From positions 682,001 through 746,000 of the forward strand of contig NZ_JAMGBB010000001.1 in NCBI RefSeq assembly GCF_023516505.1: a DNA stretch of 64,000 nucleotides. The letters run 5' to 3'. This document shows positions 2,036 to 23,539 of the stretch, one piece after another. A model generated the notes under the pieces. That model made no database searches, was not told the origin of the DNA, and saw only the letters and a list, made by a program, of their open reading frames with translations. How positions within the stretch are numbered: position 1 is the first letter of the stretch; every line of letters starts with the position of its first letter. Source of the DNA: Sphingomonas brevis. GTDB taxonomy: Bacteria; Pseudomonadota; Alphaproteobacteria; Sphingomonadales; Sphingomonadaceae. Made by a program: the position numbers and the translations under genes.

Positions 2036-2058
2036 TTGACGAAGCTAGCAGAGCAGAA

Positions 2059-2086
2059 ATGAGATCCCAGCTTTCGCTGGGATGAC
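2059..2086 (-). repeat. REP-like palindrome, right copy bracketing the GIY-YIG pseudogene
   Basis: 28 bp, the reverse complement of the 1718-1745 repeat with few differences; its core is TCCCAGCTTTCGCTGGGA. It lies 24 bp upstream of the GIY-YIG start codon. A further copy in opposite orientation follows at 2168. Confidence 0.85.
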
Positions 2087-2167
2087 GTTCAAAATGGAAG
2101 TCGGCGTCGAGGAAATTGCCGACTTCACTCGTCATTTCCCCAAAAGCAGAGCAAAGTACCCACCAAC

Positions 2168-2194
2168 GTCATCCCAGCGAAAGCTGGGATCTCA
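2168..2194 (+). repeat. REP-like palindrome, third copy
   Basis: Same 27-28 bp sequence as the reverse complement of 2059-2086, so 2059-2086 and 2168-2194 form an inverted pair with an 81-bp spacer. It lies 46 bp beyond the stop codon of rpoD and could form a hairpin at the rpoD mRNA 3' end. Confidence 0.8.
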
Positions 2195-2240
2195 CTTTCC
2201 TTAATGACGGACGGCCTTCGCTACGCTTCTCGCGACGGCG

Positions 2241-20536: not shown

Positions 20537-21160
20537 CTGACGGACCGCGATCTCGTCCGGCTTTATTGGCCGGCAAAGCTCCGGCCCGCCTTCGATGCCC
20601 TATTTGCGATCGACGATGCGCTCGCCGAAGTCGTGACGTCGTCGACGCAGCCGGCGCTGGGCGCGATCCGGCTCGCCTGGTGGCGCGAGGCGTTGGAGCG
20701 GCTCGATAGAAGCCCGCCGCCGCCCGAGCCGCGATTGCATGCCGCCGCCGCCGAGCTGTTACCGTTGGGCATTACAGGCAAGGAGCTGGCTGCGCTGGAG
20801 GATGGCTGGACTACCCTGCTGGATGAAGTGCCCGACTTGAACAAGGTCGAGGAACGGGGTGTGCGCCTGTTCGCAATCGGGGCGAAGTTGCTGGGTGCCA
20901 GCGATCCGTTCCTGGAAGCAGCGGGCCGGGTTTATGCCCTGGTTCAAATCCGGCGGATGCGCATGGCTGCATTCGCGCAATCTTCATTTGATTTGAGCAA
21001 CTTGAAAGGCCACCGATTTCCTCGACGATTGCGTCCCCTGACCGCATTCGCCCGCCTTGGCGCGCGTGACCTAAAGCAAGGAATGACAATCGAAAGCGAG
21101 GCCACGCCCGCGCGCGCTGCGGCATTGCTTCGCCATTTTGGATTTGGATTCGTCGCCTAA
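20537..21160 (+). CDS. Squalene/phytoene synthase-family protein, non-canonical start
   Basis: The frame encodes DLVRLYWPAKLRPAFDALFAIDDALAEVV, then LGAIRLAWWREALERLD and a helical C-terminus, matching the short squalene/phytoene synthase-like proteins found next to pdhB in sphingomonads. It is shorter (about 207 aa) than true synthases and lacks the paired Asp-rich DxxxD motifs, so catalysis is doubtful. The frame is open only back to 20507 and has no ATG, GTG or TTG before the GTG at 20633, which would cut off the conserved N-terminus. I place the start at CTG 20537, two bases after the pdhB stop; ATC 20528 or CTG 20519 are other options. Confidence 0.6.
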   Translation: MTDRDLVRLYWPAKLRPAFDALFAIDDALAEVVTSSTQPALGAIRLAWWREALERLDRSPPPPEPRLHAAAAELLPLGITGKELAALEDGWTTLLDEVPDLNKVEERGVRLFAIGAKLLGASDPFLEAAGRVYALVQIRRMRMAAFAQSSFDLSNLKGHRFPRRLRPLTAFARLGARDLKQGMTIESEATPARAAALLRHFGFGFVA

Positions 21161-21227
21161 GTGGATTGAATTTCTAAATCCCGGCCATAAAAATTGCCTT
21201 GCCGGATCGCCCTAATTTGGAGGGCCA

Positions 21228-21668
21228 ATGACCCGTTGGATCGCCGGCATCGCTGCCGTTTTTTTACTTGTCGCTGGCGCCGTCTTCGCGCTGCAAGGCC
21301 ATGCCGAGGCACCCGGAATAGCTCCGGCGCCGGAACCACGCCTGGCGGCGGCGTCAGGCGAGAGTCTATCAATCCCTGACGCTCCGGAGGCTGACGCCAA
21401 GGGCAAGGAGCAAAGGCGCTTCGCTCGCGCCGATGCAAATGAGGATGGCAAGCTCAGCATGGCGGAGCTGATGGAGCCTCGGCGCAAGTCATTCGGCAAA
21501 CTGGATGTCGACCATGATGGCAGATTGAGTTTCGAGGAGTGGGCCGCTTGATCCATCAAGAAATTCGCGGAGGCCGATGCCGACAGGGACCAGATCCTGA
21601 ATCCCGTCGAATTTGCGTCGACCGCGCCCAAATCGCGACCGAAGAAGCCGGCTTGCGCCTGCAGCTAA
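21228..21668 (+). pseudogene. EF-hand protein with in-frame stop before the third EF-hand
   Basis: The reading frame starts with a signal-anchor (WIAGIAAVFLLVAGAVFAL) followed by EF-hand loops DANEDGKLSMAE (about 64-75) and DVDHDGRLSFEE (about 92-103). It stops at TGA 21549-21551 after 107 codons. The same frame continues with KFAEADADRDQILNPVEF, a third EF-hand loop, and a C-terminus KKPACACS ending at TAA 21666-21668, which is how intact sphingomonad relatives end. One base change (TGA from a sense codon) explains the break. A truncated two-EF-hand protein might still be made. Confidence 0.7.
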
Positions 21669-21670
21669 CG

Positions 21671-21722
21671 GTCCTCCCCCGCTTGCCTGGGGAGGGGAAC
21701 CATCGAAGATGGTGGAGGGGTA
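21671..21722 (+). repeat. Double-hairpin repeat, left copy of the DUF559 cassette
   Basis: Two tandem hairpins: CCTCCCC/GGGGAGG, then ACCATC-GAA-GATGGT, followed by GGAGGGGTAAGT. It is an inverted copy of 22081-22141. Its GGAGGGG (21714-21720) is the ribosome binding site for the GTG start of the DUF559 gene at 21724. Confidence 0.85.
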
Positions 21723-21723
21723 A

Positions 21724-22143
21724 GTGCCGCCACGACGCGAGAGAAACGAAACTGTCCTTCGTGCCAGGGCGCTGAGACGAGAAATGACGTTGCCTGAGGT
21801 CCTGCTTTGGCGGGAATTACGCAGGCGACCGGGAAGTCTCAAGTTCAGGCGGCAACATCCATTCGGGCGCTGTATTGTTGACTTCTATTGTCCGGCTGCG
21901 CGCTTGGTCATCGAGATTGACGGAATGGCCCATCAAATGGGTTCGGAGGCCGACCGAGATCGTCGTCGCGACAGCTGGTTGCGAAGCCAAGGGTTACACG
22001 TGGCTCGCTTTGCCGTGCCTGAAGTGATGAACGATTTGGAAGCAGTGGTCCGTGAGATTGTCCGAACCGCTTTGAGCCGTTTACCCCTCCACCAAGCTGC
22101 GCTTGGTTCCCCTCCCCAAGATCGGATCTTGGGGAGGAACTGA
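21724..22143 (+). CDS. DUF559 endonuclease-domain protein
   Basis: DUF559 proteins belong to the PD-(D/E)xK-like nuclease group related to very-short-patch-repair endonucleases. The 139-aa protein has the family pattern [39 protein letters not shown] and [11 protein letters not shown] with the candidate catalytic Asp and Glu, then [15 protein letters not shown]. The GTG start uses GGAGGGG of the flanking repeat; ATG 21784 would remove conserved residues. The last 20 or so residues ([18 protein letters not shown]) are encoded by the right repeat and are not part of the domain. The biological role of free-standing DUF559 proteins is unknown. Confidence 0.85.
22081..22141 (-). repeat. Double-hairpin repeat, right copy of the DUF559 cassette
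   Basis: Read on the minus strand it is CCTCCCC-AAGATC...GATCTT-GGGGAGG, then ACCAAGC-GCA-GCTTGGT and GGAGGGGTAAAC. Compared with the left copy, the second stem differs in sequence but keeps pairing (ATC/GAT against AAGC/GCTT). It encodes the C-terminal tails of both DUF559 (plus) and TrmFO (minus) and the TrmFO stop codon TAA. Confidence 0.85.
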
Positions 22144-23454
22144 TTTCAACCATTCCTTCAGCGCGGCGCGGGCCCGGTCGGTGTACAGCCGCTTGCGGTC
22201 GGCCTTTTTTGCCTTGGGGCCCTCGATCGGCGGCATCAGCCCGAAGTTGACGTTCATCGGCTGATAGGTCTCCGCGTCGGCGCCGCCGGTAATGTGACCT
22301 ACCAGCGCACCCAGCGCGGTCTGCGGGGGCGGGGTGGGGAGGGTCCGGCCCTGCAACTCCGCCGCGGCAAATCGTGCCGCCAGCAGGCCGATCGCGGCGC
22401 TTTCGACATAGCCTTCGCAGCCGGTGATCTGACCGGCGAAGCGGATGTTCGGCATGGCCTTCAGGCGCAACTGTTCGTCGAGCAATTCGGGCGATCTGAT
22501 GAAGCTGTTGCGGTGGATACCGCCCAGCCGGGCGAACTCGGCATTCTCCAGCCCGGGAATGGTGCGAAAGATGCGCACCTGCTCGCCATGCTTCAGCTTG
22601 GTCTGGAAGCCGACCATGTTCCATAGCGTGCCGAGCGCATTGTCCTGGCGAAGCTGCACGACGGCGTGCGGCCAGCGACCGGTGCGCGGATCGTCGAGGC
22701 CGACGCCCTTCATCGGTCCAAAGCGGAGCGTTTCGACCCCGCGCGCCGCCATTACCTCGATCGGCATGCAGCCCTCGAAATAGGGCGTGTCCTTCTCCCA
22801 CTCCTTGAACTCGGTCTTTTCACCCTCGTTCAGCGCCGCGACAAAGGCATCATACTGATCCTTCGTCATCGGGCAGTTGATATAGTCCTTGCCGCCCTTG
22901 TCCCACCGCGCCGCCATCCAGCAGACGTCCATGTCGATGCTATCGCGGTGAACGATCGGAGCGATGGCATCGAAAAAGGCGAGGGCGTCGCTGCCGGTGA
23001 TCTTGGCGATCGCCTCGGCCAGGCCGGGCGCCGTCAGGGGGCCGGTCGCGATGATCGTCGATCCGGAGGCAGGTAGTGCATCGACCCGTTCCCGCACGAC
23101 TTCGATCCCCGGATGGTCGGCAATCCGTGAAGTTACTTCCGCGGCGAAGGCTTCGCGATCGACGGCCAGGGCAGATCCAGCGGGAACCCGGTGCTGGTCG
23201 GCCGCCATCATGATCAGCGAGCCCAGCGCCCGCATCTCCTGGTGCAACAAGCCCACGGCATTGTTTTCGGCATCGTCCGAGCGGAAGCTGTTCGAGCAGA
23301 CCATTTCGGCCAGCCGGTCGCTCTCATGCGCGGGCGTCATGTCGCCGCCTCCGCGCATTTCGCTGAGGCGGACCTTCAGCCCCGTTGCCGCCAGCTGCCA
23401 CGCAGCTTCGGAACCGGCCAGTCCGCCGCCAATGATGTGAACGTCTTGAGTCAT
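22081..23454 (-). CDS. trmFO: Methylenetetrahydrofolate-tRNA-(uracil-5-)-methyltransferase TrmFO
   Basis: TrmFO makes ribothymidine at position 54 of tRNA using methylene-THF and FAD. The 457-aa protein opens with the FAD-binding [17 protein letters not shown], followed by the family motifs [49 protein letters not shown] and GGIHRNSFI. The catalytic Cys regions NCP and [13 protein letters not shown] are present. The start is ATG 23454; the longer frame to 23520 only translates a flanking repeat. The last 18 residues (from about [10 protein letters not shown]) are encoded by the DUF559-cassette repeat and probably replaced the original C-terminus. Confidence 0.95.
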
Positions 23455-23471
23455 TTGAGCGCCCCCATATC

Positions 23472-23527
23472 CGTTCGTCCCGAGCGAAGTCGAGGGACGT
23501 GTCTCGACTTCGCTCGACACGAACGGC
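23472..23527. repeat. Palindromic intergenic repeat
   Basis: CCGTTCGT and ACGAACGG form the outer arms; between them lie CGAGCGAAGTCGAG and its reverse complement CTCGACTTCGCTCG. It lies between the divergent trmFO and DUF488 genes. Translated, it yields the artefactual trmFO N-terminal extension. Confidence 0.8.
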
Positions 23528-23539
23528 TAGAGTTTCGAA

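Follow-up and report, generated by a model that had tools for sequence, protein, structure and literature searches.

A DUF559 nuclease gene between inverted triplex-type repeats in Sphingomonas brevis, a probable REPIN/RAYT-like unit

Described repeat systems and the Sphingomonas brevis locus

The closest described counterparts of the element reported here are dispersed repeats of bacteria. In the REP/REPIN-RAYT (TnpA-REP) system, a solo gene encoding an HUH tyrosine transposase lies between inverted palindromic repeats of a dispersed family, gene-less inverted doublets are dispersed as well, and enzyme and repeat co-diverge. BoxC/PIT/triplex motif (TM) repeats, for which the name BoxC was taken from PMC4666352, form triplexes in vitro and are frequent in many bacteria (PMC4666352). 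According to this 2015 triplex-motif survey, mobility activities were never found around the E. coli copies, and DUF559 is mentioned 0 times in the paper. The CGTC-tagged REPs, which are alphaproteobacterial palindromes dimerized in head-to-head arrangement, are reported to be apparently without a transposase of their own (PMC3733652). The element in question was found at 21671-22143 of a 64-kb window, i.e., the whole stretch of S. brevis DNA that was analyzed, and consists of a DUF559 (PF04480) gene (21724..22143, plus strand; 139 aa, GTG start and TGA stop) framed by two inverted repeat copies. The PF04480 family carries the label "protein of unknown function".

The left repeat copy (21673..21720, plus strand) comprises the Y block CCTCCCC (21673-21679), a loop of 9 nt, the R1 block GGGGAGG (21689-21695), the inner hairpin ACCATC/GATGGT (21699-21713) and the R2 block GGAGGGG (21714-21720). 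The right copy is inverted (22084..22137, minus strand; Y 22137-22131, R1 22117-22111 and R2 22090-22084), with the inner hairpin ACCAAGC/GCTTGGT on the minus strand. The two loops measure 9 and 18 nt in the left copy and 13 and 20 nt in the right copy. The original prediction had described 21671-21722 and 22081-22141 as inverted copies with two hairpins each, whose inner stems differ yet stay paired, and folding of each copy bore this out by recovering the outer CCTCCCC/GGGGAGG hairpin together with the inner one. The perfect arms between 21671-21722 (+) and 22081-22141 (-) were 15 and 14 nt. The fold of the right copy gave a z value of -5.62 (0/200 shuffles as good), and that of the left copy alone was unexceptional (z -1.36, 24/200 shuffles as good). 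Moreover, a third block had been overlooked in the prediction. R2 is the exact mirror of R1, and blocks in this order are the hallmark of intrastrand triplex motifs. The Y/R1/mirror-R2 order occurred at 2 places in the window, both of them the DUF559-flanking copies, versus 0 in the reversed window. The strict motif finder sought a C-block, a complementary G-block and a mirror G-block and was blind to the actual sequence. An Rfam scan of window positions 21000-23000 gave no match at E up to 1, and the DUF559-flanking pair was not among the matches listed in the whole-window repeat search (minimum length 18).

The locus had been likened to REP/RAYT systems in the original prediction, and this comparison holds in layout: a gene-bearing form with a solo enzyme gene between inverted palindromic repeats of a dispersed family, dispersed gene-less inverted doublets, co-divergence of enzyme and repeat, and no target duplication found. 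Unlike that system, the enzyme here has a Vsr-type PD-(D/E)XK fold, and the end motif is a mirror-block (triplex-type) structure. On neither strand does a window copy carry the GTAG tetranucleotide at the hairpin foot, and a Y1 transposase (PF01797) gave no match in genome G000, the unit carrying a PF04480 nuclease instead. The system is REPIN/RAYT-like and yet not a member, given the different fold of its enzyme. The best reading is a REPIN/RAYT-like system in which a nuclease of the Vsr/homing type would take the place of the tyrosine transposase. We consider it likely that the repeat-DUF559-repeat arrangement is the gene-bearing form of a small mobile repeat family, with short doublets and single copies as its gene-less forms, spread by the matching DUF559 nuclease.

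In the case of BoxC/TM repeats, the order C-block, G-block, mirror G-block is shared, as is dispersal with some inverted pairs, whereas the second loop in the window is hairpin-closed and, at 18-20 nt, longer than the 1-6 nt to which loops were limited in the published search (PMC4666352). The CGTC-tagged REPs, to which a kinship may exist, are described as having 8-9 bp stems opening with A-T and a CCA tail (PMC3733652). The window copies are without the CGTC tag; the A2 subtype has CGTC with a different stem, and the subtype GACGGAGGGG has CGTC on the reverse strand. The protein model matches the fold of Vsr and I-Bth0305I, but in contrast to homing endonucleases including I-Bth0305I, the window gene is free-standing between trmFO and an EF-hand type gene, with no intron or intein. 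Pairs of MITE and IS elements resemble the system in having gene-bearing and gene-less forms with common ends and differ from it in that no transposase lies in the unit and no target duplication was found. A literature search by title and abstract, with bioRxiv and most subscription journals outside its reach, found no description linking DUF559 to such repeats, and of 14 papers that mention DUF559 none has a title on repeats of this kind.

DUF559 genes and repeats across genomes

The loci comprised 44 DUF559 genes from named records and 110 from relatives, and the repeat-gene-repeat layout was found again among them in differing neighbourhoods. L050-L079 and L112-L191 were the top-scoring PF04480 matches, with no random draw, and the controls for flank similarity and motif counts were shifted positions within the same loci. 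An inverted flank-match score of at least 15 was reached at 63/75 DUF559 loci versus 2/291 controls, and in a second locus set inverted flank similarity was at threshold in 71/80 loci versus 0/159 controls. When the flanks in related genomes were scored for hairpins, as the original prediction had proposed, a triplex-type motif adjoined at least one flank in 142/155 DUF559 loci versus 3/228 controls, and motifs faced inward on both flanks in 99/155 versus 0/228. Across 250 flanks, the G box after an asymmetric outer hairpin was the mirror only in 103, the direct form only in 1, both in 135 and neither in 11.

Several repeat families exist, and the DUF559 proteins cluster by repeat family. The tree was built with FastTree without a support test from 180/183 proteins (three of <90 aa omitted), 135 of which had one clear repeat type. 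The nearest other DUF559 protein had the same repeat type in 116/135 cases, with a chance level of 0.25; in this count 45 untyped or mixed rows were left out, same-genome rows were dropped where the genome was known, and the nearest neighbour of named-record rows without a genome label could be from the same genome. In genomes with at least two repeat types, the nearest DUF559 was of the same type in 24/26 cases, a level reached by 1/2000 within-genome label shuffles. The DUF559 subfamily predicts the repeat type even inside genomes, a result that the lineage of the host cannot by itself account for. The left and right copies of 105 two-sided loci were of the same type in 84, mixed two close subtypes in 6 and were discordant in 15.

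The number of repeat copies was also associated with DUF559 at the genome level. A strong DUF559 hit was defined as E < 1e-20, a line set after the data were seen, and the p values of the association ignore kinship. Two patterns were counted in a set of 199 genomes of the family, and one pattern in an outside-family set of Pseudomonadota, from which 11 own-family genomes were excluded. At least 4 repeat copies were present in 97/148 family genomes with a strong DUF559 hit versus 0/51 with none or a weak one, 13 of the latter 51 holding 1-3 copies. Outside the family, the corresponding numbers were 32/50 versus 10/138. The repeats were therefore not equally common in genomes lacking DUF559; equal frequency would have spoken against the original prediction. 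Among the genomes typed, 11 genera had both classes, and strong DUF559 went with the higher mean in 9 of these and with the lower mean in 1, the remaining 1 being tied.

Beyond the family, a phylum search over 199 Pseudomonadota genomes yielded 28 loci as top matches, one of which (L272) was own-family, and the motif was on a flank in 25/28 loci versus 2/56 controls. Of 34 DUF559 matches in a plasmid collection, 12 were opened, and in 9/12 the strict motif adjoined the gene on at least one side (no control). DUF559 lies between inverted repeats in Sinorhizobium meliloti, Deinococcus, Azospirillum lipoferum and Pseudanabaena, those of Picosynechococcus being short. The system is wider than the original prediction supposed, since it includes more than one repeat family and is also exemplified outside the phylum. 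In E. coli, ycjD is a DUF559 gene, and a BoxC-like repeat adjoins it by eye; the strict motif finder gave no match at MG1655 ycjD. We hold it possible, at somewhat below even odds, that DUF559 proteins are the missing enzymes of BoxC/PIT/triplex-motif repeats across bacteria, which would make up a second REPIN-like system of independent origin, its Vsr/homing-type nuclease reading a mirror-block DNA fold at the repeat and spreading the repeat by cut and repair. A candidate partner gene is thereby offered for a widespread repeat class of open origin (PMC4666352; PMC3733652), along with a testable role for DUF559 (PF04480), which extends to E. coli ycjD. Should this be true, large short-repeat populations can be created and maintained by a nuclease of the repair type, not a transposase.

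At L254 (1501-1806, an alphaproteobacterium), a DUF559 gene without the strict motif is bordered on either side by longer compound repeats, in which TCTCCCCCC..GGGGGAGA precedes a long inner palindrome; these may represent one more repeat family belonging to the system. In L044, a Chloroflexi metagenome-assembled genome (QGUR01000284.1), a DUF559 gene is followed, downstream of 3309, by CCTCACCCCCTAGCCCCCTCTCC and a hairpin, in a style like that of the other repeats. In the case of E. coli ycjD, a strain-level empty site was sought and rejected. At least 80% of the fabI-ycjD-sapF query was covered by 3333/5426 genomes, and two of the fabI-only matches, L245 (NZ_CP028761.1) and L246 (NZ_CP148349.1), were opened and carry a regulator of the TetR type and a gene for RND efflux directly behind fabI. 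As other genes stand behind fabI where K-12 has ycjD, the site does not represent an empty state of the element and is silent on mobility.

Pair geometry, dispersal and the candidate enzyme

The geometry of neighbouring pairs (<1 kb) was analyzed for 148 copies among the matches listed, to which the pair counts refer. Inward-facing orientation was found in 49/51 pairs, and the gaps of these 49 were either 12-83 bp (41 pairs) or 350-392 bp (8 pairs). A DUF559 gene lay inside 8/8 wide pairs and in 0/11 short doublets opened alongside them, and one direct-orientation pair, 460 bp apart, also encloses DUF559. Short doublets of one pattern numbered 82, 69, 68 and 3 in four genomes, and their interiors recur by eye. 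The doublet and gene-bearing forms have the layout of REPIN and RAYT. The ends are sharp and common to both forms: 78 type-A units (48 short, 30 gene-size) carry A-T-(T/C)-T beyond the hairpin at each end, with scant conservation farther out. For all lengths and offsets that were compared, a target duplication was not found in these 78 units, the best excess being 4 observed versus 1.15 expected, although old duplications may have decayed.

Another enzyme, either a RAYT/IS200-type Y1 or a DDE transposase, might spread the repeats with DUF559 as captured cargo. REPs are linked to RAYTs elsewhere (PMC3733652), and Y1 transposase genes were present in 9/16 repeat-bearing genomes checked. However, the other 7/16 (G000, G061, G037, G183, G058, G076 and G175) gave no Y1 match, the 8 wide inward pairs (<1 kb) among the matches listed hold DUF559, and no target duplication of the DDE kind was found, DDE transposases themselves not having been searched for. 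We regard this alternative as improbable. Spread by the matching DUF559 nuclease is preferred, and occupied and empty sites bear on it.

At the window locus, the insertion point lies between the 3' end of trmFO (GIDA fold; 22081..23520, minus strand; TAA stop at 22083-22081), a host gene whose 3' end is replaced by the element, and the EF-hand type gene on its other side (21228..21668, plus strand). For the trmFO 3' ends of the same genus, 30 loci were fetched and 24 were readable, of which 4 matched the wrong frame or strand (L092, L098, L099 and L103). An open DUF559 frame was present at the junction in 3/24 readable loci, i.e., the own genome, L083 and L090. L083 and L090 have a repeat on each side, with the strict motif on the EF-hand side and the trmFO-side copy in alignment with one mismatch; the gene is thus not carried at this locus without repeats in all relatives. 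In five relatives (L089, L091, L107, L109 and L110), the EF-hand gene lies directly behind trmFO without the unit. The comparison at the trmFO-EF-hand junction suggested by the original prediction therefore revealed both states, empty in five relatives and occupied in three loci. Moreover, a 252-bp stretch with a doublet was aligned to the orthologous doublet-free site of a relative at ~85% identity. Among five other printed insertions/deletions of this alignment, B at 141196 contains another C-rich repeat pair, and the rest are without these repeats. Two 96.5% identical units stand at different places of genome G155, one of them frameshifted, with identity extending ~30 bp past the motifs. 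From these sequences, copies appear to arise, and the copied stretch may exceed the motif.

As had been proposed for the left copy of the window, its R2 box doubles as a ribosome-binding-type sequence, with GGAGG just 5' of the GTG start at 21724, and the right copy encodes the DUF559 C-terminal tail and, on the opposite strand, the last codons and TAA stop of trmFO. Across units, the left copy often provides the ribosome-binding position: an in-frame open start stood 3-15 nt behind the left G box in 59/133 versus 20/266 other-frame controls, and the DUF559 reading frame enters the right repeat in 113/137. These counts, and copied stretches longer than the motifs, favour an explanation in which the repeats serve DUF559 as a regulatory or self-limiting cassette, the folded ends controlling expression or copy number of a selfish nuclease, with dispersal by ordinary recombination between the repeats. 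A cassette of this kind leaves unexplained the dozens of gene-less doublets and the ends common to gene-less and gene-bearing units, and we give it little credence.

The product of the window gene is a PF04480 protein (105 bits versus a cut-off of 20.6). Its structure model was of good confidence (mean pLDDT 89.1) and matches 3hrl, I-Bth0305I and Vsr, i.e., a PD-(D/E)XK/Vsr-like nuclease fold. No RAYT or HUH protein was among the 50 matches listed in each of two model comparisons. Across 44 relatives, D53 and E64 never vary, E25, D66 and H70 are almost as constant, and the window protein has all five. Judging from the model, an enzyme folded in this way could make a nick or a cut, leaving copying to host repair.

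The association is strong, and for the mechanism a well-posed hypothesis can be given. Each end is a triplex-type motif, made of a C-rich block, its complement and the mirror of the complement; in the window, a hairpin of variable sequence closes the second loop. The DUF559 protein would recognise its matching end motif when the strand folds, at replication or in a paired doublet, and would nick or cut at or beside the folded motif. Host repair or replication would then fill the break with a copy of the doublet or of the entire unit, and specificity would lie in the pairing of DUF559 subfamily with repeat type.

Several observations weigh against this explanation. By eye, copied or inserted stretches extend ~15-30 bp past the motifs, and as they overrun the motifs, precise excision at the motif is unsupported. 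Inward motifs on both sides occurred in just 7/28 loci of the phylum search and in 1/12 plasmid-collection loci, that of Sinorhizobium meliloti (no control). At least 4 CCCTCTCCC hairpins were counted in 7/119 Pseudomonadota genomes without any PF04480 match, namely G309 with 88 (reversed-pattern control 15), G409 with 32 (control 3), G304 with 20, G274 with 13, G332 with 8, G385 with 7 and G358 with 4. Conversely, neither pattern was present in 27/148 strong-DUF559 family genomes. In E. coli, in vivo footprints gave no triplex formation (PMC4666352). Finally, the Caulobacter DUF559 protein VsrA, reported to be required in vivo for a DNA damage response, has been tied to cytosine methylation instead (PMC12907096). 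The DNA-damage role fits nuclease action, yet points to methylation-linked repair.

An alternative explanation is that DUF559 is a Vsr-like mismatch-repair nuclease serving cytosine methylation and that the repeats around it are unrelated terminators or intergenic hairpins. However, such a passenger gene is not expected in 8/8 wide repeat pairs among the matches listed. Nor should its subfamily agree with the type of repeat inside single genomes, or its presence foretell how many repeat copies a genome has. This explanation is considered unlikely, if somewhat less so than the transposase and cassette alternatives. A repair role may exist in addition.

The window neighbourhood and other repeats

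In the own 2.59-Mb genome, PF04480 had a single match, the window gene. The type-A repeat pattern was found 4 times in the whole genome, 2 of them at the DUF559 gene, and a looser form 5 times. The copies elsewhere are one short inverted doublet (L002) and one single copy (L005). The gene downstream of the L002 doublet is presumably rimM.

The EF-hand type gene is interrupted by an in-frame TGA at 21549-21551, after which the frame continues without interruption until another stop; both pieces have matches in relatives. A second palindromic pair, AAATGAGATCCCAGC..GCTGGGATGACG and its inverse, was noted at window 2057-2197 and resembles a head-to-head dimer of CGTC-tagged REPs as described in PMC3733652. 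Another inverted repeat, TATCCGTTCGTCCCGAGCGAAGTCGAG and its inverse, lies at 23468-23529 at the trmFO 5' end, and trmFO is thus bordered by different repeats.
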